This document shows positions 18,712-48,047 of a stretch of DNA of 57,567 nt, one piece after another. Every line of letters starts with the position of its first letter. The stretch's first letter is position 1. The notes under the pieces were generated by a model. It was given only the letters and a program-made list of their open reading frames with translations. It was not told the DNA's origin and ran no database searches. A program made the position numbers and the translations under genes. This stretch comes from Sulfuricurvum sp. (GTDB taxonomy: Bacteria > Campylobacterota > Campylobacteria > Campylobacterales > Sulfurimonadaceae): the NCBI RefSeq assembly GCF_028688295.1, contig NZ_JAQTYM010000011.1, forward strand, positions 1-57,567, written 5' to 3'.

Positions 18712-19770
18712 TCAGTTGAGTTTACGGATTGGTTCGGGATTTGGTTTTCCGAAATAATACCCTTGAGCCAAATCGGCTCCGTTAGCACTACAAAACGCTA
18801 CCTCTTCGGCACGTTCTATCCCCTCAGCGAGAACAATGATATTGTTTTCGTGAGCGATCTGGGTGATCGCGCGGAAGATCGATTGGTTTATCTCATTGGT
18901 ATCGATCTGATCGATGATTGCACGGTCGATTTTAACGATATCAGGGAGGAGCTTAGCAATCATGTTGAGTGAAGAGTAGCCGCTTCCGACATCATCGAGC
19001 GCTACCATAAACCCCTGTGATTTGTAAAAATCCAAAATCCGTCTTAAATGATCCAAATCCTCAACATGATCGCTCTCTATCACTTCGAAGATGATATTCT
19101 TTGGGTCAAATTCGAGTTGTGCAGCCCATTTTACAGTGGATTGGAGGCAGTGCTCTGGATCGTAAATGGCGGTGGGGATGAAGTTGATAAAGACTTTATT
19201 TTTGATATTTTTTACTGCAGCAGTTTTAAGTGAAGATTCTCGGCAAGCACGGTCAAGATAAAAAAGCATATCCCCCTCACGCGCCCATTTAAACAATCGA
19301 TCGGGATAAATGAGATTCCCCTCATCACTTACCCCGCGAGCCAGAGATTCATATCCGTAAATGGTGTTGGATTTAAGATCAACTATGGGTTGGAAATGGG
19401 TAGTAAGGGCCCCTTTGGTGATAAGTGAGGAGAGTTCATTTGCCCCCATTAAATCTTTGTATTTTTGTAACGAACGCATCTCTTTTAAAACCATCGGAGT
19501 AAGTATTTGATTGTGTTCTAAAAAGAGGAGGCGTACCCCCTCACGTTCCATTTTAGTGAATGGATGGGCTTGACACAGTTTATATAAAAAGGATTCGAAA
19601 TCCTCAGTAGAAGCGATAAGTGTTTGGGAATCTTCATGAGAAAAGTTGATCTTTTGATTCTCGAAAATAGTGCCGATTTTCGTACAAAGCTCCGCTACAT
19701 CGCAGCTGATAATAACATTGCCTCCCTTATTCGAAATGTGTGGAAGCGATTGACATTTGGTGCAGCTCAT
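18712..19770 (-). CDS. EAL-domain c-di-GMP phosphodiesterase with N-terminal CxxC segment
   Basis: A soluble 352-residue protein predicted to hydrolyse c-di-GMP. Residues 1-110 form an N-terminal domain beginning MSCTKCQSLP, with further Cys residues, possibly a metal or redox site. The EAL domain (about 125-345) carries YESLARG in place of EAL with Glu kept, and also NFIP, EVIES, DDVGSGYSSL, VKIDR, AEGIE and QGYYFGKP, so it looks active. ATG at 19770 is chosen for its AAGGG site at 5-6 bp; the frame could be extended to a TTG at 19785. It follows the GGDEF-EAL gene by about 75-90 bp on the same strand and may share its transcript. Confidence 0.92.
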   Translation of the reverse strand: MSCTKCQSLPHISNKGGNVIISCDVAELCTKIGTIFENQKINFSHEDSQTLIASTEDFESFLYKLCQAHPFTKMEREGVRLLFLEHNQILTPMVLKEMRSLQKYKDLMGANELSSLITKGALTTHFQPIVDLKSNTIYGYESLARGVSDEGNLIYPDRLFKWAREGDMLFYLDRACRESSLKTAAVKNIKNKVFINFIPTAIYDPEHCLQSTVKWAAQLEFDPKNIIFEVIESDHVEDLDHLRRILDFYKSQGFMVALDDVGSGYSSLNMIAKLLPDIVKIDRAIIDQIDTNEINQSIFRAITQIAHENNIIVLAEGIERAEEVAFCSANGADLAQGYYFGKPNPEPIRKLN

Positions 19771-19861
19771 AATTAACCCTTGCAATATAATCGATTGTGT
19801 CTCTTATCATAGGCGCTTTCGGACAATATTGGTAGGGTGGATATGGCGATTAATCGTTAAG

Positions 19862-21937
19862 TTAAATAAAACCTATCAAATCACTCTGTTTCATCGGTTT
19901 GGCAAATAAGTATCCTTGAAGTTCATCGACTCCATGTGTAATCAAAAATTCTTTTTGCTCTAGTGTTTCGACCCCTTCTGCAACGATGGTGACATCAATA
20001 ATTTTGGAGAGGGCTATAATACTTTTAATGAGCATCGGACCGCGCTCATCCACTCCGATTTTGCGGATAAACGATTGATCGATTTTTAGGATATCGACAT
20101 CGAGCTCTAAAATGTAACTCAAAGAGGAATATCCCGTCCCAAAATCATCAATGGCAATTCTAACCCCCAAGAGATGTAAATCACCAATCACTTTTTTAGC
20201 AGCGACAAGATCTAACATTAATGATGTTTCCACAATCTCTAGAATCAGTTTTTTAGGATTGAATTTTTTGGCTTTTATTGTGTTACTAATAAACTCAACA
20301 AACGAGGGTTTTAACAGAGTATCTACGGTGAGATTAACGGCAATTGAACCATTCTCTTTGAACGCAGGGGAGAGGGTAATAAACGTATCGATAGCGGTAG
20401 CGATAACCCACTCGTCTATTTGGGTCATTAAACCTGCTTTATGGGCTATGGGGAGAAAATCATCAGGTGCAATAAGTCCTTTTTTAGGAGAGTTCCAACG
20501 GATCAACGCTTCAAAAGAGTGACACTGATTATTTTGTGAATCAATCAGCGGTTGATAGAATAGGATCAGTTCATTGTGTTTAATTGCCTCTTTAAGCTCA
20601 TTTCCGATTTGGAGATAGGTGGAGACTTGTTCTCTCATCTGTGGTGTGTAAAAATGGTATTTATTTCGCCCTGATTCTTTGGAGGTGTACATCGCGGCAT
20701 CTGCGTTACTCAAAAGAATTTCAGCGCTCTCTCCATCATTCGGATAGACGCTGATACCGATACTGCATGCACTAAAGATCTTTTTGCCACCGATCAAAAA
20801 TGGAGTTTCAAACAATTTTTTCAATTTTTCAGCGACCTGAGCAAAATGAGAGAGGTCTGAACCGTTTTCGATCACCATCACAAATTCATCCCCTCCGATA
20901 CGGGCGATGGTATCCCCTTTGCGTGTTACTTTTTTAATTCGTTTGGCTACCTCTATGAGAAGCTGATCACCGCTTAGGTGCCCCATCGAGTCATTAACCT
21001 CTTTAAAATGGTCCAAATCGATAAAAAACAGTGCAAATATTTCTTTATTTCTATGCTTGTGTTGAATGGTTTGTTCGATTCGGTCGTTTAGAAGGCGTCG
21101 ATTCGGAAGTTGAGTGAGAGGATCGTGCATCGAAATATGGGAAAGCTTTTCGGTTTCGGCTAAAAGCTGATCTTGGATGGTTATGTAGTCGGTGATATCG
21201 TGGGAGATTTCAAGATAAGCGGAAATTTCCCCATCTTCATCAAAAATTGGGCGTACATGTAGCTCAATATGACGTTTTTCACCACTTTTGGTTAGATGAA
21301 TTTGTCGAACGGTCATCGATTGTTTAGAAGTTTGTACCTGTTGGATAGGGCATACGTGATCATCTTCGTTACAGGGACGTTTTAAATGATAGTTGAGACT
21401 GTAGCATTTAGTGGATTGCTCGTTGGTTAAATTTGGATTTAATTTTTTGGCAGCATTATTGAGCATTAGTACTGTGTAATCGGGTTTAATGTATAAAATA
21501 GGATCGGGGATTTCATCAATGATGGTTTGCATCGTCTCTTTGGAAGTTTTTAACAGGTTTTCAAGAACATTGATACGTGCTACCTTGTGCATTACGCTTA
21601 GAAGTTGATGAGGTTTGGTCGGTTTGAGAACATAACTATCGACACGTAAATCGATACTTCGTAAGAGGAGATTGGTATCACTAAAGGCAGAGTTGACGAT
21701 GATCGGAATTGCCCCGTCACTCTTGCGTATCTCTTCGATCATGTCGAGTCCACTCATTTTTGGAAGTTGAAGGTCACTGATAATCATATGCGGTGAGTGT
21801 TTTTGGAAAAGTGCAAGCCCTTCTTCTCCATTACGTCCAATAAGGATAGTTTTAAACTCATCGCCAAAGGCATTAATAAATGCGCTAATTGTCGATTCGT
21901 CGTCTTCTATGTACAAAAGAATCAAGGAATTAAGCAT
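19862..21937 (-). CDS. REC - PAS - GGDEF - EAL response regulator
   Basis: Soluble response regulator of 691 residues that can make and break c-di-GMP. A receiver domain fills residues 5-120 (phospho-Asp in SDLQLPKMSG, Ser in NSAF, Lys in VLKP), followed by a PAS domain (about 135-260), GGDEF (RIGGDEF near 346, I-site RKGD) and EAL (FEALIRW near 474 with NLTV, EIVET, DDFGTGYSSL, LKIDQSF, AEGVE, QGYLFAKP). All catalytic residues are kept. The ATG at 21937 overlaps the end of the CheB-CheR-kinase gene by 8 bp; a GTG at 21943 is the alternative. The kinase domain encoded upstream is its obvious phosphate donor. Confidence 0.94.
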   Translation of the reverse strand: MLNSLILLYIEDDESTISAFINAFGDEFKTILIGRNGEEGLALFQKHSPHMIISDLQLPKMSGLDMIEEIRKSDGAIPIIVNSAFSDTNLLLRSIDLRVDSYVLKPTKPHQLLSVMHKVARINVLENLLKTSKETMQTIIDEIPDPILYIKPDYTVLMLNNAAKKLNPNLTNEQSTKCYSLNYHLKRPCNEDDHVCPIQQVQTSKQSMTVRQIHLTKSGEKRHIELHVRPIFDEDGEISAYLEISHDITDYITIQDQLLAETEKLSHISMHDPLTQLPNRRLLNDRIEQTIQHKHRNKEIFALFFIDLDHFKEVNDSMGHLSGDQLLIEVAKRIKKVTRKGDTIARIGGDEFVMVIENGSDLSHFAQVAEKLKKLFETPFLIGGKKIFSACSIGISVYPNDGESAEILLSNADAAMYTSKESGRNKYHFYTPQMREQVSTYLQIGNELKEAIKHNELILFYQPLIDSQNNQCHSFEALIRWNSPKKGLIAPDDFLPIAHKAGLMTQIDEWVIATAIDTFITLSPAFKENGSIAVNLTVDTLLKPSFVEFISNTIKAKKFNPKKLILEIVETSLMLDLVAAKKVIGDLHLLGVRIAIDDFGTGYSSLSYILELDVDILKIDQSFIRKIGVDERGPMLIKSIIALSKIIDVTIVAEGVETLEQKEFLITHGVDELQGYLFAKPMKQSDLIGFI

Positions 21938-24900
21938 TAGCACCTACTTGCAGTGTAATAGAAGTTTTCATCCCATTTTTGATTGATTTCATCTCAATAG
22001 AGCCATCCATACTGTTTTCGATGATCATTTTTGACATGTACAGACCGATTCCTGTCCCCTCTTTTTTCTCTTTGGTGGTGAAATAAGGCTCAAATAAACG
22101 GTTCATAATCTCAGCAGAAGCACCCCCTCCGTTATCGGTGATGGAGATGGTAACTTTTTGGGTACTTTTTTCAACTTTGAAACGGATGGTTCCTCCACTT
22201 TTTTGTGAGCTTAGGATGGCATCTTTAGAGTTATTTAGAATATTGATAAGCACTTGGGAAAACTCATTTTCGTAGCCATAAATCTCACAATCATTCATTG
22301 CATCATGGAGAATCGTGATCCCTGATTGTTTAAAAGAGTCGTTGACGAAAGAGATCGTTTTACTGATGAGTGCGTTGAGATGAAACATTTTTTTCATTTT
22401 ATTGGGATTGAAAAAATCGCGGAAATCATCGATGGTGAGTGACATGTGCTGGATGGTTTTTTGTGACTCTTCGACAAAATCGTGAAACACCTCTTCGCTT
22501 AGAGTGTGCGCACGAAACTTTTTCTCGGTCCCAAAAAGGTTGAGGGCCAGTGAGTTGAGCGGTTGACGCCATTGATGGGCGATGTTTCCGATCATCTCTC
22601 CCATACTGGCGAGTTTGGATTGCTGGAACATCAGCTCTTGGTTTCGGATAATATCAGTTTTGTCGGTAAATCCGATAATGACGCCGAAATCATCGGTGGT
22701 AAAATTGATCGCTTTGATTTGAAACCAATAAATTCGGCTATCGATGATCAAATCGTATTCAATCTCGGTTTTGTTTTGGACGACACTTTTGACGTTATCA
22801 AAAAGGTTCGGGATGGTTACGAGGGCATTGATGACGATTTCACTCAAGTTGATTTTGTGAGAGTAGTTGATTTGGAAAAAACGTTCCATCCCTTTGGTAT
22901 GGAGAAAGAGATCAAGATTTTTATCCAAAATCAAAACATCGGTATTGATCACTTCGACCACTCGGTTGAGCGCTTCATTGACAAACGCCAACTCTTTGTT
23001 TTTATGTTGAAGTTCATCGTTAACGGTGCTGAGTTCTTCGTTCGTACTTTGTAACTCTTCGTTAGAGGTTTCCATCTCTTCATTGGTACTTTGGAGCTCT
23101 TCGTTGGTGCTTTGGAGCTCTTCATTAGTACTTTGAAGCTCTTCGTTAGAAGTTTCTAGCTCTTCGATGGTGATTTGGAGACGCTCTTTGAGAGCGGTAA
23201 GCTCATTTTCGAGGATATTGACATCATTGATGTCGTGTGCTTGCATCTGATGCGACAGAAGCGGAGAACGCTCGGTTTCATTAATCTCTTCGAAGGTGAC
23301 AAAATAGCTGCTTTCGGCGAGTTTATTGCGACCAAGGGGAAATACGGTGATGATAATGTAGATACGATCATCGGTGAGGGGGAGAATGCGGATTTTTTTG
23401 GAAACCGCAACGGACTCATTTTTGACTGCTTCGTTGAGAGTTGCACGCAGATCGAGGCGGAGAAAATCACTCACTTGTTTGTAAATTTCGTTGGTCACTA
23501 AACCACTTGGGTGGGAGATATGGCTGTTCTCCCCTTTGAAAAACAAAATCCCCCCATTGGAATCGACGACCACACCGTTTTGTGCGAAGTATCCTGAAAC
23601 GGCACTGTTTATCGAGACATTGATATCCAGCACGTTCACTTCATCCCGCAGCTTTCGTGTACCGCGTCGGATATCTTTTCGCTGAAAGTAGGCGAGGGCA
23701 TCGATATCGGCATTTCCCATGTCGGTCGATTTGCGATAAATTTTGTGTTTATTATCGATGATGGCAAAAATAGAGGTGAGATTTCCGATTGTCTCAGAGA
23801 GTCCCAAAAACATCAATCCCTGATAACGCATCGCATAAGAGAAGATACTGATAACCCGATGTTGAAGCTCTGCATTAAAATAGATCAAAAGATTGCGGCA
23901 ACTAACGAGATCGAGATTGAGAAACGGCGGGTCTTTGATGACATCGTGTTTTGAAAAAACGATCATGTCGCGTATCGCTTTTGTAGGGGTAAAGCGATGA
24001 TTTTTTTCGACAAAATACTCGGTGAGGATCTGCGCATTTATTTCAGCAATTTCTTCTTCATTAAAGCTCCGGTTACGGGCTTCATCGATCGCCTCTTCAC
24101 TCACATCAGTCGCAAAAATGGTCACTTTTTTGGTGATTTCCATCTTTTTTAACAGTTCTGTTACGACGATAGCGACCGAATAGGCCTCTTCTCCCGTAGC
24201 ACACGCCGCAATCCAAATACGCAGGTGGTTATCGAGTTTTTCTCGGAGGAGGGCTTCTAACTCTTTTTCGAGCGCTTTAAATGCCTCTTTATCTCTAAAC
24301 AAAGAGGTGACGATGATGAGCAGCTCTTTTTTGAGTTTTAAAATCTCGGCGGGGGAGCGTTGGAGGAGATCGATGTAATCGTCCACACTTTCTGATTTCG
24401 TATCGATGATTCGGCGCTCTAAGCGGCGATGGATCGTGTTTTCTTTGTAGTCGCTAAAATCGACGTCACTTTTTTGGTTCAGGAGTTTAAAAATTTTGTC
24501 AATATTGTCTAAAAGATCAAAATGGCGGTCAAAGTATTTAGGATCATCAATCGCATAGGTGATTCCCTGCGCTAAAAGTTCTGAGGGGAGAACGGCGTCT
24601 ACGGCATGGGTGTCGATAGCTGCTTTTGGCATCGAAAAATATTTGGCGTTTTCATTTTCTGCGAGGGCGATTCCGCCGTTTTGTTTAATAGCGACGATCC
24701 CTTCTGCACCATCACTTCCCGTACCACTGAGGATAATACCGATTGCTTTATCTTTTTTCTCTAGGGCTAATGATTTTAAAAATCGGTTAACGGAGGGTTT
24801 TGGATAGGGTTTGATGGAGGGGGCGGTAAGAATGAAATGCCCATTTTCAATTAAAAGATCAAAATTTGGGGGACAATAGTAGATATTATCTGCCAAAGGT

Positions 24901-25130
24901 TCTAATCCATCCGTGATTTGGGTAATCGGTATTTTTGAAAAACGGGATAGTAATGTTCCTAGTAATGTTGGTTGTTTCGGGTCGAGATGTTGAACAATGA
25001 CATACGTAACTCTATCGGAGAGTTCGATGTTTTGGATAAATTTTTGAAGTGCTTCAAAGCCTCCAGCGCTAGCGCCCAGCCCTACAATCGTCAAATTCTT
25101 ATAGGGATCTACACTTTTCTCTTTTGGCAT
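21930..25130 (-). CDS. CheB - CheR - coiled coil - PAS - histidine kinase fusion
   Basis: A 1066-residue cytoplasmic fusion. Residues about 10-200 are a CheB esterase (GLGASAGG, IVQHLDP, SGTGSDGAEG triad); about 215-475 a CheR methyltransferase (IAACATGEEAYSVAI, FATDVSEEAIDEAR, VSCRNLLIYF); about 640-735 a long coiled coil with ELQSTNEE heptads; about 740-850 a PAS domain; then HQWRQPL with phospho-His near residue 850, NILNNSKDAI and GTGIGLYMSK of the ATPase domain. It combines receptor-type adaptation enzymes with a kinase in one chain. It begins 3 bp after the LOV gene and overlaps the REC-GGDEF-EAL gene, so it is the middle of a signalling operon. No receiver domain of its own. Confidence 0.95.
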   Translation of the reverse strand: MPKEKSVDPYKNLTIVGLGASAGGFEALQKFIQNIELSDRVTYVIVQHLDPKQPTLLGTLLSRFSKIPITQITDGLEPLADNIYYCPPNFDLLIENGHFILTAPSIKPYPKPSVNRFLKSLALEKKDKAIGIILSGTGSDGAEGIVAIKQNGGIALAENENAKYFSMPKAAIDTHAVDAVLPSELLAQGITYAIDDPKYFDRHFDLLDNIDKIFKLLNQKSDVDFSDYKENTIHRRLERRIIDTKSESVDDYIDLLQRSPAEILKLKKELLIIVTSLFRDKEAFKALEKELEALLREKLDNHLRIWIAACATGEEAYSVAIVVTELLKKMEITKKVTIFATDVSEEAIDEARNRSFNEEEIAEINAQILTEYFVEKNHRFTPTKAIRDMIVFSKHDVIKDPPFLNLDLVSCRNLLIYFNAELQHRVISIFSYAMRYQGLMFLGLSETIGNLTSIFAIIDNKHKIYRKSTDMGNADIDALAYFQRKDIRRGTRKLRDEVNVLDINVSINSAVSGYFAQNGVVVDSNGGILFFKGENSHISHPSGLVTNEIYKQVSDFLRLDLRATLNEAVKNESVAVSKKIRILPLTDDRIYIIITVFPLGRNKLAESSYFVTFEEINETERSPLLSHQMQAHDINDVNILENELTALKERLQITIEELETSNEELQSTNEELQSTNEELQSTNEEMETSNEELQSTNEELSTVNDELQHKNKELAFVNEALNRVVEVINTDVLILDKNLDLFLHTKGMERFFQINYSHKINLSEIVINALVTIPNLFDNVKSVVQNKTEIEYDLIIDSRIYWFQIKAINFTTDDFGVIIGFTDKTDIIRNQELMFQQSKLASMGEMIGNIAHQWRQPLNSLALNLFGTEKKFRAHTLSEEVFHDFVEESQKTIQHMSLTIDDFRDFFNPNKMKKMFHLNALISKTISFVNDSFKQSGITILHDAMNDCEIYGYENEFSQVLINILNNSKDAILSSQKSGGTIRFKVEKSTQKVTISITDNGGGASAEIMNRLFEPYFTTKEKKEGTGIGLYMSKMIIENSMDGSIEMKSIKNGMKTSITLQVGANA
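23035..23165 (-). repeat. 21-bp tandem repeats coding for a coiled-coil heptad
   Basis: About six imperfect 21-bp units code for repeated E-L-Q-S-T-N-E or M-E-T-S-N-E-E heptads in the CheB-CheR-kinase fusion. The repeats are in frame and common in this protein family, so they are a protein-structure feature and not a mobile or CRISPR repeat. Confidence 0.85.
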
Positions 25131-25133
25131 TGT

Positions 25134-25853
25134 CTAAATCATCCTTTTGATTTGTTGAATCAGTTTTTGTATAGCGGTCACATTTTTTTGAACCCCTAAA
25201 AAATACTTCAGTTTATTATTTTTTTTGTCGAAAATAGGGCTAATAGTGAGTTCATTAAAAATCAACTCTCCGCTTTTGGTGTAGTTGCGTAGGGTGACGG
25301 TGACATCTTGCTGTTTGTTTACGGCTTCGCGCACTTCATCAAGCCCTGTCTGATCTCGATCATCCCCTTGTAAAAAACGGCAGTTGCGACCGATCACCTC
25401 TTCGGCAGTGTAGCCGAACAAGTCGGTAAACGCCTCATTAACAAAGATAATAGGGTTGTCGGGCTGATTAGGATCAGAGATGGTCAAACCATTTTTAGCT
25501 TGGTCCAAAATTTCTAGGACATAGTCAGTGATGTCCGGTATGTTATCTCTAAACTTTTTAAGGACATAATGTCCCCCATAATAATTATTGATCATCAAAC
25601 AAGGGAGCCGTTTGCGGATGTTACTGATCAAATTACGAATATGTTTAGGATTAAACTCTTTATCGTAATCGTCCCAAATATGAAAAAAAATATCAACACT
25701 GCTTATCGGTCTATCGTAATGCTCAATAAAAAGTTTTAAGAGTGTCGTCATATTCGAGGTCAATGCTACAGGATGATTATCTTGCAATACAGCAAGCGTT
25801 TTAGGGTCCCAGTAGCAATTTTTTGACAATTTGATGAGTAAAGTTTCATTCAT
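25134..25853 (-). CDS. Winged-helix - LOV blue-light photoreceptor
   Basis: A 239-residue soluble protein. Residues about 8-105 look like an OmpR/PhoB-type winged helix (HPVALTSNMTTLLKLF, RPISSVDIFFHIWDD, NPKHIRNLISNIRKRL, NNYYGGHYVLKKF). Residues about 115-232 are a LOV domain with the flavin-adduct Cys158 in GRNCRFLQGDDRDQ and the other flavin contacts in NYTKSGELIFNELTISP and FLGVQKNVT. It should therefore be a photoactive blue-light sensor. Output before the sensor is the reverse of the usual receiver-first order. First gene of an operon with the CheB-CheR-kinase fusion and a GGDEF-EAL regulator, suggesting light control of c-di-GMP. Start ATG at 25853, with only a short GAG upstream as ribosome site. 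Confidence 0.92.
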   Translation of the reverse strand: MNETLLIKLSKNCYWDPKTLAVLQDNHPVALTSNMTTLLKLFIEHYDRPISSVDIFFHIWDDYDKEFNPKHIRNLISNIRKRLPCLMINNYYGGHYVLKKFRDNIPDITDYVLEILDQAKNGLTISDPNQPDNPIIFVNEAFTDLFGYTAEEVIGRNCRFLQGDDRDQTGLDEVREAVNKQQDVTVTLRNYTKSGELIFNELTISPIFDKKNNKLKYFLGVQKNVTAIQKLIQQIKRMI

Positions 25854-25860
25854 GATCTCA

Positions 25861-25893
25861 ATTGTATTACAAAAGTATCTTTAAAGTGTCTTT
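25861..25893 (-). promoter_or_regulatory. Tandem 11-bp direct repeats at the LOV operon promoter
   Basis: Read in the gene direction, AAAGACACTTT (25893-25883) is followed at once by AAAGATACTTT (25882-25872), a 10/11 match with an 11-bp period. A TACAAT -10-like hexamer (25866-25861) follows, only 7 bp before the ATG. Direct repeats with 11-bp spacing are the classic target of OmpR/PhoB winged-helix proteins, so autoregulation by the LOV protein is plausible. Confidence 0.5.
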
Positions 25894-28674: not shown

Positions 28675-30351
28675 TTATGTTTTTAAAATAATTCCTGCGC
28701 GTATCAATGCTTTATCGATATGATCGACGATATTTTCTTTTCCGATATGCTCATCAATGTGCGATTTTTCGATAAATTTTCGCACTTGCGCATTGACACC
28801 GGAGAGAATTAAAGAGGTATTTTTTTCATGAAGCCGTTGGTGGAGTACTTCCAGAGCATGCAATCCCGCCGCATCGATCAGAGGAACATAACGCATCCGC
28901 AAAATGAAAACTTTGGAGGGCTTTTCGAACAACGCGAGAGTATCGATCAGTTTTTCTGCGACACCGAAGAACAGGGGCCCTTGTATCTCATACACTTCGA
29001 CATCTTGGGGTATTATTTTGTGTTGGATGGAATCAGGGTCATTTTCTTCGCTCTCTACCGCACGGATATGGGTCGCTTTCATCATTTGATCGATAAATAA
29101 AATCGAAGCGAGGGCAATCCCCGCTTGTATCGCAAAGTTCAAATCAACCAGTACCGTCAATAAAAACGTAACGATCAAGACAATGCGGTCGGTTCTCGGA
29201 GCGTGCATAATCTCACGGATATGTTTGATTTCGGACATATTCCACGCTACCACCATCAAAATCGCGGCGAGTGCGGCGAGGGGGACTTTTATAATAAGCG
29301 GGGCTAAAAGGAGCATAAAGATAAAGAGCCATACTGCGTGCATTATCCCCGCCACCGGAGTGCGTGCCCCGGCTTTTATGTTGGTAGCGGTACGGGCGAT
29401 GGCTCCGGTAGCGGGAAGACCGCCGAAAACTCCTGAAGCAACATTGGCAATCCCTTGCCCTAAAAGCTCGGCATTGGATTTGTGGCGTGTACCGGTCATT
29501 CCATCGGCGACAACGGCTGAGAGGAGTGACTCGATAGCCGCAAGAGTGGCAATCGTGATCGCATCAGGGAGTAAAAGCCGAAGTTTATCGAACGTGATCT
29601 GTGGCCATACCGGTGTAGGGAGCATAGAGGGTATGGAGCCAAAGCGGCTCTCTATCGTCTCAACGGGTAAATTAAGTGCCCAAACGGCGAGCGCACTGAG
29701 GGTAACGACGATAATGGGACCGGGGATACGAGGGATATGTTGTTTTGCCAGTACGATAATACCGATAGACGAAAGGGCGAGGATTACGGCTATAACATTG
29801 GTCTCACCCAGATGAGCGAGATAAACGTAGAGTTTATCGATAAAATCAGGGGGAACGGTGGTGATGGAGAGGCCAAAAAAATCACGAATCTGTGAAAATG
29901 CGATGAGTAAGGCGATCCCTGAAGTAAACCCAACGATAACAGGGTAGGGGATAAATTTAATCAACTCTCCGGCGCGTACAAATGCCATGATCATCAAGAT
30001 GATCCCCGCCATGATGGTTGCTAGTACCAGTCCCTCGTAGCCATGCTTCATAGCGACGGTCGCGACGGTGACGATAAAGGCCGCTGTAGGCCCCCCGATC
30101 TGATAGCGGCTGCCACCGTGTGCTGAGATTAAAAAACCGGCTACGATGGCGGTAAAGAGTCCACGCTCAGGGGGGAGATTCGAAGCGATAGCAATCGCCA
30201 TGGCTAGCGGCAGGGCGACAATCGCTACCGCTAATCCTGCAATCGAATCAGCGATGAAATCAGAACGGCTGTATCCTTGACGTTTAAAAAGGGTGACAAG
30301 TTTCGGCTCTAGGGAGTCGTGAATCGAGCGAAGCATTGATAAATCTTTCAA
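28675..30351 (-). CDS. SulP-family anion transporter with STAS domain
   Basis: A 558-residue permease. The N-terminal region has the SulP start DSIAGLAVAIVALPLAMA, about 11-12 membrane helices and the conserved GLPATGAIARTATNIKAGARTP region in two adjoining parts; residues about 440-545 are a STAS domain (EIQGPLFFGVAEKL, FILRMRYVPLIDAAG). SulP proteins carry sulfate, bicarbonate, nitrate or dicarboxylates; the substrate cannot be told from sequence. In an autotroph bicarbonate is an attractive possibility. It is divergent from a second, different SulP gene; the 186-bp space between them holds both promoters, not resolved here. Confidence 0.93.
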   Translation of the reverse strand: MKDLSMLRSIHDSLEPKLVTLFKRQGYSRSDFIADSIAGLAVAIVALPLAMAIAIASNLPPERGLFTAIVAGFLISAHGGSRYQIGGPTAAFIVTVATVAMKHGYEGLVLATIMAGIILMIMAFVRAGELIKFIPYPVIVGFTSGIALLIAFSQIRDFFGLSITTVPPDFIDKLYVYLAHLGETNVIAVILALSSIGIIVLAKQHIPRIPGPIIVVTLSALAVWALNLPVETIESRFGSIPSMLPTPVWPQITFDKLRLLLPDAITIATLAAIESLLSAVVADGMTGTRHKSNAELLGQGIANVASGVFGGLPATGAIARTATNIKAGARTPVAGIMHAVWLFIFMLLLAPLIIKVPLAALAAILMVVAWNMSEIKHIREIMHAPRTDRIVLIVTFLLTVLVDLNFAIQAGIALASILFIDQMMKATHIRAVESEENDPDSIQHKIIPQDVEVYEIQGPLFFGVAEKLIDTLALFEKPSKVFILRMRYVPLIDAAGLHALEVLHQRLHEKNTSLILSGVNAQVRKFIEKSHIDEHIGKENIVDHIDKALIRAGIILKT

Positions 30352-30537
30352 AATTAAAATTATTTTGTAAGTTTAGCACTTTTAGTGACTCTTCAACTAT
30401 TTTTAAGTAAAATTTCAAGATTCAAACTGTCACTATCCCTCTTGTTCTGCCACATTTTCGAAATTCCCTGTTTCGTTGTTTAGGCCTTTATATCACATGG
30501 AATGGATGTTGTACAGTGATTTTAAAATGGAGTTACT

Positions 30538-32031
30538 ATGCTGATTTTATCCCCTAAGCAAGAGTGGTTCGGCAATATTCGCGGCGATATCCTCGCCGGA
30601 ATCGTCGTTGCTCTTGCCCTCATCCCCGAAGCGATTGCGTTTTCGATCATTGCAGGGGTTGATCCAAAAGTGGGGCTGTATGCTTCGTTTTGTATCGCGA
30701 CGGTCATCGCATTCGTCGGTGGCCGCGCGGGGATGATCTCCGCCGCAACGGGGGCTATGGCATTGCTTATGGTAACCCTCGTAAAAGAGCACGGGTTGCA
30801 ATATCTGATGGCGGCAACATTGTTGACGGGAGTATTGCAGATATTTGCTGGGTATATCAAACTCGGTGTCCTTATGAGTTTCGTCTCCCGTACTGTTGTG
30901 ATCGGGTTCGTGAACGCATTAGCGATTTTGATCTTTATGGCTCAGCTTCCTGAGTTGACTAATGTTACATGGTACGTTTATGCGCTAACGGCGGCGGGGC
31001 TAGGGATCATCTACCTTTTTCCCTACATCCCTACAATCGGAAAACTAATCCCCTCACCACTTGTTACAATCGTCGTATTGACCGCTGTTACTGTAGCTAT
31101 GGGGATTGATGTTCGCACGGTCGGTGACATGGGAGCGCTTCCTGATACGCTTCCTCTTTTTCTCTGGCCTGACGTTCCGCTAAACTTTGAAACCCTCTCG
31201 ATCATTTTTCCCTACTCTGTGGCACTAGCGGCAGTGGGGCTACTCGAATCGTTTATGACGGCCACGATCATCGACGATATGACCGATACCGACAGCGATA
31301 AAAACCGCGAAGCCAAAGGGCAGGGGATCGCTAACATCGCCAGCGGATGTATGGGGGGAATGGCGGGATGTGCGATGATCGGTCAGTCGGTTATTAATAT
31401 CAAATCCGGTGGTCGAGGGAGACTTTCTACCCTTATTGCGGGTGTATTGCTCCTCATCATGGTTGTTTTTATGTCTGATCTGATCTCCATCATCCCGATG
31501 GCGGCACTCGTAGCGGTAATGATTATGGTTTCTATCGGAACCTTTAATTGGGCCTCTATCAAAGGGCTGAAAACCTTGCCATTATCGACCAATATCGTAA
31601 TGCTCTCAACTGTTTTTGTGGTCGTAGGGACCCATAACCTCGCTCTAGGTGTATTTACCGGCGTTCTTTTGGCATCACTCTTTTTTGCCAATAAAATCAG
31701 CCACTTGATGTATTGGGACAAATCGTTCGAAGAGACGAGCAGTACAAGAATCTATAAATTTGTCGGACAAATCTTTTTTAACTCCGCAGATCGTTTTGCC
31801 GATGCGTTTGATTACAAAGAAGAGGTTAAAAATGTCGTAATCGACGTTACACGTGCCCACTTTTGGGATATATCTGCCGTGTATGCCCTCGATAAAGCGG
31901 TCATTAAATTGCGTACAATGGGTAAAGAGGTAGAAGTGATCGGACAGAATGAAGCGACTCAGACGATCATCGATCGTTTCGGTGTTCACGATAAACCCTC
32001 AGAGATTGAGAAAATGATGGGGGGCCATTAA
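30538..32031 (+). CDS. SulP-family anion transporter, second type, with short STAS domain
   Basis: A 497-residue permease with the SulP opening [21 protein letters not shown], the [23 protein letters not shown] motif in two adjoining parts, about ten membrane helices and a compact STAS domain from about residue 405 ([33 protein letters not shown]). It differs clearly from the neighbouring SulP protein (shorter, PEAIAFS rather than PLAMAIA), so this is not a recent duplication. GGAG lies 6 bp before the ATG. Substrate unknown; sulfate or bicarbonate are the usual candidates. Convergent with the MFS gene. Confidence 0.93.
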
Positions 32032-36776: not shown

Positions 36777-38030
36777 AACGATCCTAAAACAGTTCAGCCC
36801 CGATGCATGCTGATATTCCAGCGTATAGCCGTGTTTGTTGAGGATAGAATAGGTGATGTAAAGTCCCAATCCTAATCCACTTTCTGATCCCTCATAGGTA
36901 CGGTTAAACGGCTTGGAAAAAACTCGGTTTTCATCAGGGATCGGATCTCCGATACTGCATACTTCAATACTGTGTGACAATATAATCAGAGTCGGTTTCG
37001 AGTTGGAGTATTTGAGTGCGTTGTCGAGAAGATTTTTGAGGGCAATGGAGAAAAGCTGGAAATCGGCGTTGATCATCAAATCGGAGTTTTCCCCTTTGAT
37101 GGTAATATTTTTTTTGTCACACAGCAAAATATCACACGTATGATCGAGGATATCGACGAAACGGTACTCTCGTCTATTAAGATGCCACTCCCCACTGCTA
37201 AATTGCTCCATTTTTGAAAACTCATCCAAGAGATAACTCATCCGATTAAAAATCCGTTTTAACCGCTCTTGCTCTGCTGATTCACCAATACAGTCGGTGG
37301 TAAGGGAGCCTTTCATAATCGGGGTTTTTAACTCATGTAGAATATTACGTAAAAACAGGGAACGCGCTTCTTTCATGGCCGCTATTTTTTCTAAGACCAG
37401 ATTAAATTCGCGGGTGATCTGAGAAATCTCGTCTTTTCCATCACTAGACATTTTAAGACGGGTATCGCCCTCTTTGAAATTTATAATGGCATCTTTGAGA
37501 CGATGCAGGGGGGTAAGTTTACGCAATAGATAGAGAAAAAAGAGCAAAACAAGTATATCAATCGCGACAAATATCCCCCAAATTTTCCATGACGAGTATT
37601 CTTTCAAATCTTGCAGAACAATCGTGGTAAAAGGAAATGGTAGTGGTGGCGGCAGAAATTTTGAATCCCCCATCATCGGTGGCGGTCTACCAAATTTAAA
37701 ATCAGGGGGAGGAAATTTTATGAAATAGATCTTGTTATCATAGCGCATCATTTTGCCAAAAGGGAAGGATACTAAAGATTCCCCTTTAGTACGCAATATT
37801 TCTGAAGAGTATGATGAGGGTATTATCATTAACTGTTTTAATTCTGAGTCAAAATTGCCCTTTTGATGGTGGATGAGCCTATCTGCTAGCGCAAATCGTT
37901 GCATTCGATCCGCTATTTGTTCTTTGGAGAAATGTTGTTGAGCAATCCAAAAAAGCCCGTTTATCAAGGCAAATATCAGTAGAAAAAAGAAGATAATGAG
38001 GCGAATAATGGAGTGATTATTGATTAACAA
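36759..38030 (-). CDS. Membrane sensor histidine kinase, ArsS-like
   Basis: A 423-residue kinase: membrane helices near 9-29 and 152-172, a periplasmic sensor of about 120 residues, HAMP, phospho-His in NILHELKTPI, N-box NLLDNALKY and GLGLGLYITYSIL. The arrangement matches the ArsS acid-sensing kinases of Helicobacter. The periplasmic loop is rich in proline, with PPP runs such as FPPPDFKFGRPPP. It overlaps its response regulator gene by 14 bp. The likely target next door is an EF-hand gene, so calcium or acid are both possible signals. The name ArsS means acid-responsive and does not link it to the arsenic genes. Confidence 0.92.
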   Translation of the reverse strand: MLINNHSIIRLIIFFFLLIFALINGLFWIAQQHFSKEQIADRMQRFALADRLIHHQKGNFDSELKQLMIIPSSYSSEILRTKGESLVSFPFGKMMRYDNKIYFIKFPPPDFKFGRPPPMMGDSKFLPPPLPFPFTTIVLQDLKEYSSWKIWGIFVAIDILVLLFFLYLLRKLTPLHRLKDAIINFKEGDTRLKMSSDGKDEISQITREFNLVLEKIAAMKEARSLFLRNILHELKTPIMKGSLTTDCIGESAEQERLKRIFNRMSYLLDEFSKMEQFSSGEWHLNRREYRFVDILDHTCDILLCDKKNITIKGENSDLMINADFQLFSIALKNLLDNALKYSNSKPTLIILSHSIEVCSIGDPIPDENRVFSKPFNRTYEGSESGLGLGLYITYSILNKHGYTLEYQHASGLNCFRIVLNQSN

Positions 38031-38685
38031 ATTTATATCCTACACCCCGAACCGATACGATATAACGGGGATTTTTAGTGTCGTCGCCGATTTTTTGACG
38101 GATTCGTCCCATGATAACATCAATACTTTTGAGACTGCTCTCATATTTGATCGATCCAATACTCAATAGTAGCTCTTCGCGTGAGATAACGGTGCGGTCT
38201 TTTTGGATCATGTAAGCGACGATATCGTATTCAGCTTGGCTAAGACGCAGGTATGCACCGTGTCGTGTAATCTCATGACGTTCATCATCGACCTCAAAGG
38301 GGGTGAGTGCTTTGGGCATGGTCGGATGGAGGCGTCGCAAAATCGCATCGATTCGGACAATAAGCTCTTGCGGATCGTAGGGTTTTGGGAGATAATCATC
38401 TGCTCCGCGTGCAAATCCCATCATTTTATCCCGTATGTCAGAGCGAGCAGAAGAGATGATGATCGGGATCGAGCTCTCTTGGCGAATCAGGCGGCAAATC
38501 TCCATCCCATCCATCTGTGGCAGTGAGAGATCGAGGACTAAAAGATCAAAATGTTGTTTTTGAAAGAGGCTTAACCCTTCCAGTGGTGTTGTCGTGATAG
38601 TTACATCGATATTATCTTTGACTAAACGTCCCTTTAACAGTTGTGCGAGTTCGATATCATCTTCAATCATTAAAACATTTATCAT
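38017..38685 (-). CDS. OmpR-family response regulator, ArsR(acid)-like
   Basis: A 222-residue DNA-binding regulator: receiver domain (LMIEDD, phospho-Asp in LDLSLPQMDG, Ser in SSARSD, Lys in LPKPYD) and winged helix (TRHGAYLRLSQAEYD, SLKSIDVIMGRIRQKI, ISVRGVGYKFV). The ATG at 38685 gives a normal length; a TTG frame ten codons longer would contain the promoter -10 inside coding sequence. There is no ribosome site, and TATAAT ends 6 bp before the ATG, so the mRNA may be leaderless. An 18-bp direct-repeat box sits upstream and recurs before the EF-hand gene. Confidence 0.93.
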   Translation of the reverse strand: MINVLMIEDDIELAQLLKGRLVKDNIDVTITTTPLEGLSLFQKQHFDLLVLDLSLPQMDGMEICRLIRQESSIPIIISSARSDIRDKMMGFARGADDYLPKPYDPQELIVRIDAILRRLHPTMPKALTPFEVDDERHEITRHGAYLRLSQAEYDIVAYMIQKDRTVISREELLLSIGSIKYESSLKSIDVIMGRIRQKIGDDTKNPRYIVSVRGVGYKFVNQ

Positions 38686-38691
38686 AAAGCG

Positions 38692-38725
38692 ATTATAACG
38701 GGGCAAAAGTAACAAGTAAGTAACA
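38692..38725 (-). promoter_or_regulatory. Promoter of the response regulator gene with direct-repeat box (copy A)
   Basis: In the gene direction the box TGTTACTTACTTGTTACT (38725-38708) has two GTTACT half-sites with an 11-bp period, then 10 bp, then a perfect TATAAT (38697-38692), then 6 bp to the ATG. No sigma70 -35 is visible, as expected if a PhoB/OmpR-type activator bound to the box replaces it. Autoregulation by the adjacent regulator is the simplest reading. Confidence 0.65.
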
Positions 38726-44946: not shown

Positions 44947-45636
44947 TTATTTAAAGAGGTGCCTAAAATGTTTGGCGCCATCTTTCGAACTCTCTACACT
45001 CTCTTTTATCCCCTCAAACAAGAAGCTGATACGGCTTTGCTCGATGGTATTCATTTCACGTATTTTGTTCAGATTAACGAGATACGAGCGATGCACCCGT
45101 AAAAATGAGTAAGGTTCCAACATTTTTTCAACGTCAGAGATTTTTTTAGGGTAGTACGAGAACCCCTCACGTGATCGAAAGATCACTTCGGAAAGATCGG
45201 CTTGGACGTAATAAATATCCTCAGGGGAGAGCAAATAGTGTGTTTCACCCGCTTTAGTGATAAGTCGAAGCTCCTTTGGAGGAGTTTTTACGCTGATACG
45301 CTCTAGGGAGCGTTCGAGTTGTTCCACCGTGTAGGGTTTGAGGAGATAATCGACTGCACCTACATCAAAAGCGGCTAAAGCATGATTATCATAAGCGCTC
45401 TGATAAATAATTCTCATCTCTTCATGGTGATAACGAAGCGCGTATCCGAGTTCGATCCCATTCATCCCAGACATCGAAATGTCTAAAAAGGCAAGATCAA
45501 ATTTCTTTTGAGCTGATAATTCCAACGCCTCTTCCGCACTCGATGCTTGGGTGATATCATTATGATCCAAAGATGTTAACAGTCGATAGAGACGCGCAAG
45601 GGCGAGGGGTTCATCATCAACGATTAATATTTTCAT
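44947..45636 (-). CDS. LytTR-family response regulator
   Basis: A 229-residue regulator. The receiver (residues 1-118) has LIVDDE, phospho-Asp in LDISMSGMNG (Ser for the usual Pro), Ser in QSAYDN and Lys in LLKPYT. The LytTR DNA-binding domain (about 130-228) shows IYYVQADLSEVIFRS, FSYYPKKISDVEKML and FLRVHRSYLVNLNKI. Targets are usually membrane, envelope or redox genes. Its start overlaps the kinase gene by 20 bp, and the operon begins with a flavoenzyme gene, so feedback between that enzyme and this regulator is possible. Confidence 0.93.
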   Translation of the reverse strand: MKILIVDDEPLALARLYRLLTSLDHNDITQASSAEEALELSAQKKFDLAFLDISMSGMNGIELGYALRYHHEEMRIIYQSAYDNHALAAFDVGAVDYLLKPYTVEQLERSLERISVKTPPKELRLITKAGETHYLLSPEDIYYVQADLSEVIFRSREGFSYYPKKISDVEKMLEPYSFLRVHRSYLVNLNKIREMNTIEQSRISFLFEGIKESVESSKDGAKHFRHLFK

Positions 45637-46627
45637 GACACTCCTTTAGGGTGATGAGATAAACAATAGGGGAAGCGGACTCTAGGGAGAGTTTGCCTTC
45701 GCACAAGTGGGTTAGCCGCTCTTGAAGATTTGAGAGACCGATTCCAAAGGCAGGATTGGTGATCGCTTTTCCATTGTTGGAAACACGGATCTGAAGATCG
45801 GAATCAAAAGTAGTGTGTACATGAATTGCAAAATCCCCATCTGAAGTGGAAAATCCATGTTTGATTGCATTTTCGCACAAAAGCTGAATCGAAAATTTCG
45901 GGACCATTATGGAAAGGGTTGAGGGATCACTTTCCACAAAGAGTTGAAGATTGCTAAAGCGGATGTTTTCGAGTTCGATGTAATCGTGCACATTGCGAAG
46001 CTCTTCATGGAGGGTGATGAGCGGGTGCTCTTCCATTGTATTACGTAGAAAATGGGAGAGTTTAACGACTGCTTCTTCCGCTTGTTGAGGATTTTGATGG
46101 ATGAGTTCGGTGAGAGAATTGAGGGCATTGAACAAAAAATGGGGATTGAGCTGTGTTTCGAGTGAGCGCAGACGACTTTGGACAAAGAGATATTCGCTCT
46201 CCTCTTTTTCATTACGCGCTTTGACGAAACGGTACATCAATGCCCCCATCAAATAGGTGAGAATACCGATAATTGATGCACTTTGGATAGGATGGGTATG
46301 AAATAGCTCCACAGTAGAAATCGGGAGAATGAGAAACAGCAGGTAGGTACTGATGGTCCCTAAAAAACCCGAGGCGAAAGAAAACGCTGCAGCGGTAATA
46401 TTCCATGCCACTTTAGGAATGTTTGGGAGGAGATAGCGGTTCATCGAAGTGACGAAAATCAAAGAGTAAAGGGCAATAAAAAATCCCAAAACTATCCCGA
46501 AAATCCCCCCCTCATAAAGTCCCATCTCCAGTAAGTAATACCCCAACATCGAGAGAAACGCAGAAAATAAAACACCTGTCGCAAAAACGCTTAACCAATC
46601 ATGCCACGTAATTTTGAGTTCATTCAT
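45617..46627 (-). CDS. LytS-type membrane histidine kinase
   Basis: A 336-residue kinase with four or five membrane helices in residues 10-135 and almost no periplasmic domain, then a His_kinase (LytS/YehU) domain with phospho-His in QLNPHFLFNALNSL, and an ATPase domain with LLCENAIKHGF and GIGLSNLQERL. The signal is probably sensed in or at the membrane. It overlaps the upstream flavoenzyme gene by 8 bp and the LytTR gene by 20 bp, so all three are co-translated. Confidence 0.93.
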   Translation of the reverse strand: MNELKITWHDWLSVFATGVLFSAFLSMLGYYLLEMGLYEGGIFGIVLGFFIALYSLIFVTSMNRYLLPNIPKVAWNITAAAFSFASGFLGTISTYLLFLILPISTVELFHTHPIQSASIIGILTYLMGALMYRFVKARNEKEESEYLFVQSRLRSLETQLNPHFLFNALNSLTELIHQNPQQAEEAVVKLSHFLRNTMEEHPLITLHEELRNVHDYIELENIRFSNLQLFVESDPSTLSIMVPKFSIQLLCENAIKHGFSTSDGDFAIHVHTTFDSDLQIRVSNNGKAITNPAFGIGLSNLQERLTHLCEGKLSLESASPIVYLITLKECHENINR

Positions 46628-48047
46628 CCAAAAGCCTCAAAAGATTAAATGATCCCATAACAACACCGGGCCATCCTTGCGCTGCAAAACTGGTATCTCC
46701 CACCTGATACAATCCATCAATCGGAGTGTCGTTCGAGGGGAGAAAGGGGAGGAAGTTCGAACGGTTCATCGGTACCCCTCCCAATTGGGTTCGGTTTAGA
46801 TAACGTCCAAAAGTTTTCGGTGTTGCGGCGAAACTTCGCAGGATAGTATCTTTGTTGATAGAGAGTGTATCACAAATTGACGCCTCAATCAACCGACTTA
46901 GAATCTCTTTTCGTTCTTTGTATTCAGTATCACTGATCCCTAACCAATAAGAGGTATTCGTATGGATCGAAGCAGTAATACTGAGGGTGTTGTTTCGGGA
47001 GAGTTCAGTATCTCTTGGATCACTGATTGAGACGAATAGTGATTGAGAAATCGTATACGGAAAAGTAATTTTTGATATTATTTGATAGTGATGATAAAAC
47101 TCCTGTGTATTGGGAATGTTCATGTAAAGGACAAAGGCGCTTTGATGGTTATTGAGCGAGGTATATCTACGGTAATATTTTTTAATTTTATCGGATGTAA
47201 ACCATACTGAACTTTCAAAATGAGAGGTTCCCATGATCAAATTTTTGACGTCCATTTCATAATGCGAGGTTGAGAGTCTGAACCCTTTTTTGAGTTTTTC
47301 AATCTTCGTGATGGGATGAGATAAACGAACATCAGCAATGTTTTCGGTGAGGCTTTCGCACACTTTCCCCATCCCTCCGAGTGCATAATAGTTCGATTCA
47401 AAGGTGTATCCAAGAGCCAATGCGGCATTGAGAAAATTAATTGAATCGCTTTTAGCTTGGGTAACGATCAGAATCTGTGCGTCTAAAAAATCTAAAAAAT
47501 CTGGATCAATGTTAGCGTAAAAATGGAGAATAAAACTTTTGGCGTCTCGAAAGAGATAGTTCCAAAATTTTTGTAAGAGGGGATAAAAAGTTCGTAATGA
47601 GTAAAGTTTTTGAGCCCATGATGCATTCGAATAATAATATCCATCGGTTTCATAAAACTCTGTGGTGATGTTTTTGATTAAATGCCAAAATTCATAATGC
47701 TTTGGATGGGGATAATGGACGTTGAGTACATTGATGAAACGCTCTATATCTTTGTATCTGGGGATAACTTTTTCCCCTTGGATCACAACGATAGCGGGAT
47801 CTGATTCAATCACGTGCGGTACGACACCGACCTGATTGAAAAGTTTTTTAACAACTCTCCCCTCACTGTATCCGCAAAAAGTGGTAGCCCCTGCATTGTA
47901 AGCGAAGTGATTTCGCTCAAATGTCGAAGCACACCCACCTAAATAAGGCTCTTTTTCAAACACTACGACATCTTTTCCGGAAGCATTGAGCAATGCTGCA
48001 CATGAACACCCACCGATACCTCCGCCGATAACTGCATACTCTCTCAT
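46620..48047 (-). CDS. CrtI/phytoene-desaturase-like FAD-dependent oxidoreductase
   Basis: A 475-residue flavoprotein. The N-terminus has the dinucleotide fold VIGGGIGGCSCAALL and VVVFEKEPYLGGCASTF, and the C-terminus the FAD-binding QVGDTSFAAQGWPGVVMGSFNL. The order is that of carotenoid desaturases/isomerases (CrtI, CrtH) and retinol-saturase-like enzymes. No phytoene synthase or other carotenoid gene is present in the window, so the substrate is unknown; an oxidised or unsaturated lipid is possible. It overlaps the LytS-type kinase gene. Three Cys residues occur in the first 40 positions, two of them in GGCSC. Confidence 0.87.
   Translation of the reverse strand: MREYAVIGGGIGGCSCAALLNASGKDVVVFEKEPYLGGCASTFERNHFAYNAGATTFCGYSEGRVVKKLFNQVGVVPHVIESDPAIVVIQGEKVIPRYKDIERFINVLNVHYPHPKHYEFWHLIKNITTEFYETDGYYYSNASWAQKLYSLRTFYPLLQKFWNYLFRDAKSFILHFYANIDPDFLDFLDAQILIVTQAKSDSINFLNAALALGYTFESNYYALGGMGKVCESLTENIADVRLSHPITKIEKLKKGFRLSTSHYEMDVKNLIMGTSHFESSVWFTSDKIKKYYRRYTSLNNHQSAFVLYMNIPNTQEFYHHYQIISKITFPYTISQSLFVSISDPRDTELSRNNTLSITASIHTNTSYWLGISDTEYKERKEILSRLIEASICDTLSINKDTILRSFAATPKTFGRYLNRTQLGGVPMNRSNFLPFLPSNDTPIDGLYQVGDTSFAAQGWPGVVMGSFNLLRLLDE

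Follow-up and report, generated by a model that had tools for sequence, protein, structure and literature searches.

How would blue light come to act on cyclic di-GMP (c-di-GMP) turnover in a member of the Campylobacterota, which to our knowledge are not known for photobiology? The question is raised by a locus on contig NZ_JAQTYM010000011.1 of Sulfuricurvum sp. (57,567 nt, hereafter called the window; all positions refer to its full length), which belongs to a genome of 2.6 Mb in 137 contigs. Four genes on the minus strand encode a winged-helix-LOV protein, a fusion of CheB, CheR and a histidine kinase, a REC-PAS-GGDEF-EAL protein and a stand-alone EAL protein (Table 1). The first two genes are separated by 3 bp, the second and the third overlap by 14 nt and the fourth follows 76 bp behind; in all this, the open reading frames and Pfam agree with the initial annotation of the locus. 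The same annotation proposed a blue-light operon with a kinase and a matching receiver, which stands, and a route from light to c-di-GMP through the adaptation enzymes methylesterase and methyltransferase, which we do not follow. We consider it probable instead (roughly 0.65) that the winged-helix-LOV protein is a light-gated regulator of the OmpR/PhoB type that acts on its own c-di-GMP operon, with the CheB-CheR-kinase fusion and the REC-GGDEF protein as a two-component pair.

Relatives of the winged-helix-LOV protein were collected by one contig scan, from which the best 80 of 160 were kept, and by searches of 298 genomes of the order and 228 genomes of the family. The contig scan gave at least seven full-length relatives with 68-91% identity, and among the best 80 of the 160 relatives the nearest named one at the LOV locus comes from a metagenome-assembled genome of Sulfuricurvum (L023). 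The nearest operon, L162, lies on the same contig as L023 and is 91%, 96% and 84% identical in genes 1 to 3. After doubly present contigs had been dropped, 36 full-length loci were compared, with the domains of the neighbouring genes checked by Pfam for a part of the loci only. The locus is thus not a single-locus oddity, and the order of a winged helix ahead of a LOV domain, which had been regarded as unusual, is real and recurs across the 36 loci. All 36 belong to the Campylobacterota, partly because the search covered this phylum, and the records name Sulfuricurvum, Sulfurimonas and Sulfurospirillum as hosts. Copies from the Sulfurospirillum group are 74-78% identical to the LOV protein of the window and some members of the family only near 40%; the loci may have been exchanged between genera.

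The LOV gene is followed by the CheB-CheR-kinase gene in 17 of the 36 loci, 14 of them complete with a REC-PAS-GGDEF(-EAL) gene and three cut by contig ends (L024, L170 and L174, the last one within CheB). Two loci show the order CheB-CheR-kinase, REC/GGDEF-EAL, LOV, and another two a kinase-less CheB-CheR, PAS-GGDEF-EAL and LOV. GGDEF-EAL before LOV occurs in seven loci (L179 is broken and L180 begins inside the EAL part), LOV before GGDEF in three, and a phytochrome-GGDEF gene, LOV and a methyl-accepting chemotaxis protein (MCP) gene in one; an MCP gene and a short PAS gene stand divergent to LOV in three loci, and L177 shows neither. Altogether, a GGDEF/EAL gene is visible in 29 loci and CheB-CheR in 21. 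Seen from the side of the fusion, orthologues of the CheB-CheR-kinase (E = 0) are present in 16 of the 228 family genomes, and 15 of these 16 are clustered with a winged-helix-LOV gene, the exception (L191 in genome G390) having the fusion and a split receiver/GGDEF-EAL pair and no LOV. The first three genes are a conserved module, and the expected common neighbourhood in relatives therefore holds for these genes but not for gene 4, since no stand-alone EAL gene was found behind the third gene in the other loci examined. L162 has a DUF6394 gene at this place. Gene 4, which was rejected as a member of the system, is possibly read through from the operon.

The operons also share an element in front of their first gene. 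A direct repeat, GACACTT-N4-GAYACTT-N6-TANNAT, hereafter called the box, was read from the first 16 upstream regions side by side and scored over its half-sites and the -10 element (maximum 18, threshold 15). The threshold is reached at 32 of 35 operon 5' ends (L180 was left out, as its operon start lies off the contig), compared to 3 of 354 upstream regions of other genes with frames of at least 100 aa from the same loci and 16 of 7000 shuffled sequences; at a threshold of 17, the corresponding counts are 19, 1 and 0. Two of the three control matches adjoin LOV genes, namely an MCP gene in L107 and a double-PAS gene in L178. Among the loci outside the set that defined the box, 17 of 19 reach 15, the misses being L159 (14) and L177 (11).

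The box moves with the operon and not with the LOV gene. When LOV is the first gene, the box starts 35-38 nt ahead of the LOV start in 23 of 24 loci, the second of two overlapping registers being taken for L105 and L175; in L176 the distance is 44 nt to the beginning of the match and about 35 nt to the first methionine. In ten operons in which LOV comes last (L178, L108, L159, L112, L109, L110, L181, L160, L111 and L179), the box is located 5' of the first gene, before CheB-CheR or GGDEF-EAL and 1.8-5.8 kb upstream of LOV, with a degenerate first half-site in several of them. The -10-like hexamer of the window is separated from the ATG by 7 nt (25854-25860), a spacing kept in most LOV-first loci, and since this leaves almost no leader, the operon mRNA is likely leaderless. 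Independent of the box, palindromes of the TTACATGTAA type recur in the intergenic DNA upstream of LOV in three loci of the Sulfurospirillum group (L024, L026 and L028), where they are a possible site of another regulator.

Within its own genome, with up to two mismatches allowed, the box has two sites, one without mismatch at the operon promoter and one with two mismatches inside a coding frame, and a large regulon was not found at this tolerance. A relaxed box with at most one mismatch, applied to 35 genomes (34 with the winged-helix-LOV protein and G390), yielded 24 sites in 22 genomes and none in the reversed control. Twenty of the 24 sites are at LOV operons, and 18 of the 22 matching genomes have no site other than that at the LOV operon. 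Of the other four, the site in G043 precedes an MCP gene, that in G397 a GGDEF-like gene and that in G378 a 198-aa gene with an MCP-like gene behind it; in G395 the site is close to a receiver-like gene. The genes in G397, G378 and G395 were named by eye. The site in G397 (L209) is a second box with no mismatch to the relaxed pattern, about 30 nt before a gene for a membrane GGDEF-like protein, which is a possible extra target.

A stricter pattern gave 14 sites in the 298 genomes of the order, six at LOV operons or their neighbour and eight elsewhere, compared to five in the reversed control. Five of these eight, all in genomes without this LOV protein, are within about 1.2 kb of genes for REC-winged-helix proteins, either directly 5' (L128 and L130) or 5' of the next gene (L131, L132 and L133); the remaining three comprise one by a REC-GGDEF-EAL gene near a contig end and two inside unrelated genes. 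The operon in L130 encodes a REC-winged-helix protein, a REC-GGDEF protein and a kinase, with a receiver where the LOV domain would be. When the 30 best matches of the L130 REC-winged-helix protein were examined with a slightly looser -10 spacing, three scored at least 15 upstream and 27 at most 14. These three are L210 (17), which is the query itself, L213 (17), which had already been found via the box, and L211 (15). The winged helices closest to that of the LOV protein are those of L210 (73 bits) and L211 (69 bits), both with a box, and of L234 (68 bits) without one. That the two most similar winged helices, those of L210 and L211, go with the box suggests, but does not prove, that it is tied to this winged helix and close relatives of it, irrespective of the sensor.

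The protein itself consists of a winged helix of the OmpR/PhoB type (residues ~1-100), the LOV domain (~110-230, with the adduct cysteine C158) and a short C-terminal helix. Pfam detects Trans_reg_C at residues 27-85, weakly yet above the threshold (1.5e-6, 28.6 bits with a cut-off of 26.2), and PAS_9 (1.1e-21), and it gives no Response_reg match in the 239 residues, so an N-terminal receiver is absent. A profile of 11 relatives matches the DNA-binding domain of CssR in the PDB (3.1e-7), and also DrrD and other domains of the OmpR family, and the region of helix 3 is conserved as NPKHIRNLISNIRK. Among solved LOV proteins, the best match of the LOV half is 8c05, a diguanylate cyclase with the LOV domain as sensor (3.3e-31), followed by the phototropins. 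The flavin-adduct cysteine, which had been noticed at the outset, is indeed intact within NCRFLQ, and the alignment shows that N157, R159, Q162, R166, N190, N200 and Q222 are kept as well, which we take to be flavin contacts together with C158. Of the 16 other matches of the protein in its own genome, seven were inspected, and none of these seven has a LOV motif of the NCRFL type.

Taken together, gene 1 would encode a one-component photoreceptor with a flavin-binding LOV domain behind a winged helix. Blue light lets LOV domains form a flavin-cysteine adduct; here, the adduct would alter the dimer and thereby its binding to the two GACACTT half-sites, 11 bp apart, in the -35 region of the promoter of its own operon, and transcription of the operon would change. 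Activation is more likely than repression, because the box replaces the -35 element; the position of pho boxes is comparable. The fusion would phosphorylate the receiver of the REC-PAS-GGDEF(-EAL) protein, with c-di-GMP as the output of the operon. Light would thus set the amount of the kinase/GGDEF pair and a second signal, entering via the CheB-CheR-kinase, its activity.

As had been stated before, the fusion contains methylesterase, methyltransferase and kinase parts (CheB 3e-44, CheR 3.5e-46, HATPase_c 4.8e-18), with HisKA just below its cut-off (5.5e-6, 26.8 bits compared to 26.9), and gene 3 encodes a receiver with domains for c-di-GMP synthesis and hydrolysis (Response_reg 7.6e-19, GGDEF 9.8e-50, EAL 2.5e-67), to which a formerly unnamed PAS domain has to be added (PAS_4 6.7e-12); EAL is also the domain of gene 4 (5.1e-55). 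The motifs of the CheB Ser/His/Asp type and of HisKA/HATPase are present in the fusion of the window, as are the Asp and Lys of REC in its partner. A GGDEF motif with RxxD site is found in the protein of the window and in all 14 complete operons of this type, and the EAL half in only four of them (window, L162, L169 and L172; it is missing in ten), so the constant output appears to be c-di-GMP synthesis. Both kinase-less CheB-CheR fusions (L112 and L178) have a partner without REC, and REC is also missing from the checked GGDEF partners in loci without CheB-CheR (L109, L110, L111, L160, L181, L168 and L176); L171, with a REC-GGDEF protein and no CheB-CheR-kinase, is an exception. From this pairing, the fusion and the REC-GGDEF protein most likely form a two-component system. 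A phmmer search with one MCP query revealed no MCP gene in the neighbourhood (about 5-6 kb) of the 21 loci with CheB-CheR, L024, L170 and L174 being among the loci cut by contig ends. In a tree of the CheB-CheR-kinase proteins, the two kinase-less fusions were not placed (branch lengths near 10), and from the poor AlphaFold model of the linker (predicted local distance difference test, pLDDT, 49.1, with a shallow alignment) we took only the long coiled coil.

Several points weigh against light-gated control through the box. As the loci are related, 32 of 35 operon ends do not represent 32 independent events; the first genes of the LOV-last operons were set with the box positions already in view, and the score threshold was chosen post hoc. 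The box stays below 15 in L108 and L159 (14 each), L177 has none (11), and an equal-scoring match exists elsewhere in the scanned region of L108, L159, L179 and L181. With the relaxed pattern, the LOV operon is recovered in 20 of the 34 genomes with the winged-helix-LOV protein and missed in 14, and in G378 and G395 the only site lies away from this operon. The eight boxes outside LOV operons in the 298 genomes barely exceed the five of the reversed control, and with only L211 being new among the three box carriers of the 30 REC-winged-helix proteins, the support from these proteins is of limited independence. On the side of the protein, the AlphaFold model is poor (mean pLDDT 60.7, shallow alignment), and only the order of strands and helices in the winged-helix part was used. 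A second clade, in which LOV comes last (12 of the 36 proteins, support 100/100), has Tyr or His in place of the Gln in all 12 members, Glu or Asp in place of the Asn in eight and a replaced Arg in all 12. The adduct cysteine is lost in 3 of 35 LOV domains (L177 is not readable in the alignment), with Ser in L168, Pro in L176 and Ile in L112, the first two sitting in the first clade. Because of these replacements and the three proteins without cysteine, light sensing cannot apply in the same form to all members.

The replaced contacts and the missing cysteines would fit a flavin domain that senses redox state or oxygen and not light, by which the module would adjust c-di-GMP to redox conditions in microaerophilic sulfur oxidisers; Sulfuricurvum, Sulfurimonas and Sulfurospirillum are chemotrophs. 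We regard this as unlikely, since the protein of the window and most of its clade retain the cysteine and the flavin contacts, and light-linked genes accompany some relatives: phytochrome genes in L107 and L168 (Pfam) and in L173 and L176 (phmmer), a heme oxygenase gene in L168 and a photolyase gene in L023. In L168 and L176, which both lack the cysteine and have a phytochrome gene in the cluster, it looks as if red-light sensing had taken over. The tight linkage of LOV to the CheB-CheR-kinase in 15 of 16 orthologues and the CheB motifs in the fusion of the window speak for the route through the adaptation enzymes, in which LOV would contact the fusion, methylesterase and methyltransferase would tune the kinase and hence the REC-GGDEF protein, and the winged helix would serve for protein contact or have a secondary function. 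This is rather unlikely, as ten loci combine LOV with GGDEF and lack CheB-CheR (seven GGDEF-EAL before LOV, three LOV before GGDEF), the His-type pattern of CheB is unmatched in 5 of 20 fusions, and both the box and the conserved helix-3 region point to DNA binding. A route by DNA binding from LOV to the whole operon fits these GGDEF operons and the box at 32 of 35 ends better.

DNA binding at the box could also be the work of another OmpR-family regulator, with the LOV gene as merely one regulated gene. Genomes that lack this LOV protein do have boxes close to REC-winged-helix genes, and the genome of the window encodes other OmpR-type regulators, for instance at 38017-38715. Three observations make this quite unlikely: the exact box of this genome is present only at the LOV operon, just as the site at the LOV operon stands alone in most genomes with a match; nothing in the genome of the window matches, at E 1e-25, the REC-winged-helix protein that goes with the box in L130; and upstream of the LOV-less kinase operon in L191, the available 231 bp contain no box. 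Control of the operon by its own winged-helix-LOV protein is thus the reading that we prefer.

Table 1. Features of the LOV operon in the window, with the basis of their assignment
Feature	Position	Strand	Basis or remark
Predicted box of the winged-helix-LOV protein and promoter	25861..25890	-	Upstream comparison, pattern scan, scored test
Half-site 1, GACACTT	25884-25890	-	Part of the predicted box
Half-site 2, GATACTT	25873-25879	-	11 bp from half-site 1
-10-like element, TACAAT	25861-25866	-	Ends 7 nt ahead of the ATG of the winged-helix-LOV gene
Winged-helix-LOV protein, 239 aa	25134..25853	-	Pfam, PDB matches
CheB-CheR-(coiled coil)-histidine kinase fusion, 1066 aa	21930..25130	-	Pfam; CheB and kinase motifs present
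REC-PAS-GGDEF-EAL protein, 693 aa	19862..21943	-	Pfam; GGDEF and RxxD motifs present
EAL protein (gene 4), 357 aa	18712..19785	-	Pfam

Some further observations concern relatives and neighbours of the operon. Seven LOV domains (L109, L110, L111, L160, L179, L180 and L181) keep the cysteine and have Tyr or His for the Gln and Glu or Asp for the flavin-contact Asn; judging from these residues, their photochemistry may be unusual. The winged-helix-LOV gene of L105, L106 and L175 has an MCP gene and a short, 127-aa PAS gene in divergent orientation to it (Pfam on L105 only), which hints at a link to taxis. Beyond the phylum, a LOV protein of a Bacteroidetes metagenome-assembled genome (L054, 4736-5443; query residues 19-239, 34%) and proteins of Noviherbaspirillum (L079; 28-226, 29%) and of a cyanobacterium (L061; 47-235, 35%) match the query with alignments that reach into the winged helix, and L054 may have the winged-helix-LOV order outside the Campylobacterota. 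Directly upstream of the LOV operon of L023 (3503-8938), a photolyase gene and a 2-thiour_desulf/DUF1722 gene are located behind three genes of 476, 340 and 231 aa. These are perhaps the same set as the oxidoreductase-like, kinase and LytTR regulator genes (475, 336 and 229 aa) at 44947-48047 of the window. At 28675-32031, two different genes for SulP-type sulfate permeases with STAS domains adjoin on opposite strands.

Compared to known systems, the protein combines traits of several families. The helix-turn-helix (HTH) of EL222 is of the LuxR type and C-terminal to LOV, whereas here a winged helix of the OmpR/PhoB type is N-terminal and would bind direct repeats arranged in tandem at -35. 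Common to both is the union of LOV and a DNA-binding domain in one protein, with light-dependent binding of a dimer to be expected (PMC9614035, PMC4844311). The word "winged" was not found in the text of PMC9614035 on EL222 systems, and PMC4844311 counts eight bacterial LOV-HTH proteins in 2014, in either order. From the OmpR/PhoB family (PhoP, CssR, DrrD), the winged-helix domain is shared by sequence, but that family has an N-terminal REC domain and the protein described here a C-terminal LOV sensor and no receiver. The predicted site likewise resembles the tandem-repeat sites of 7 + 4 bp in this family, PhoP binding 7-bp direct repeats with a 4-bp spacer according to the abstract of PMC4832192. 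In LOV-GGDEF(-EAL) photoreceptors such as those like 8c05 and SL2, blue light is tied to c-di-GMP as proposed here, but LOV acts on an enzyme of the same chain and not, as it would here, on transcription; PMC8846402 describes light sensing in c-di-GMP networks by domains within GGDEF/EAL enzymes or by short photoreceptors via contact.

Among the matches listed, no title or beginning of an abstract pointed to a c-di-GMP regulator built of winged helix and LOV or to the set of genes described here. In the literature searched, no paper was found that joins LOV, blue light and Sulfurimonas, nor one that joins LOV, winged helix, photoreceptor, response regulator and OmpR. CheB-CheR fusions with a C-terminal PAS/kinase part exist by annotation, although they were not found as such in the literature searched; their methylesterase, methyltransferase, coiled-coil and kinase parts follow each other as in the fusion described here, which differs by its constant place in a cluster together with a LOV regulator and a partner of the REC-GGDEF type. 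The winged-helix-LOV architecture may be listed in the catalogue of LOV architectures that Glantz reportedly published in 2016. The main text of the Arcobacter genome paper (PMC2147049) contains neither "LOV" nor "blue light".

The 30-bp promoter is a concrete prediction, and the conserved pair of CheB-CheR-kinase and REC-GGDEF protein offers a testable job for CheB-CheR fusions. If the proposed regulation is true, it would bring a third mode of light control over c-di-GMP, by a LOV regulator via transcription, to sulfur-oxidising Campylobacterota, and a winged helix of the OmpR type that is driven by LOV at a defined tandem site would provide a compact part for optogenetics. As to its origin, we tentatively suggest that LOV has replaced the receiver of an OmpR-type regulator with the DNA site being kept, and that the result is a self-regulating light-to-c-di-GMP operon with two inputs, spread across the Campylobacterota. 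Light would then determine the enzyme dose through transcription, and the CheB-CheR-kinase would control enzyme activity.

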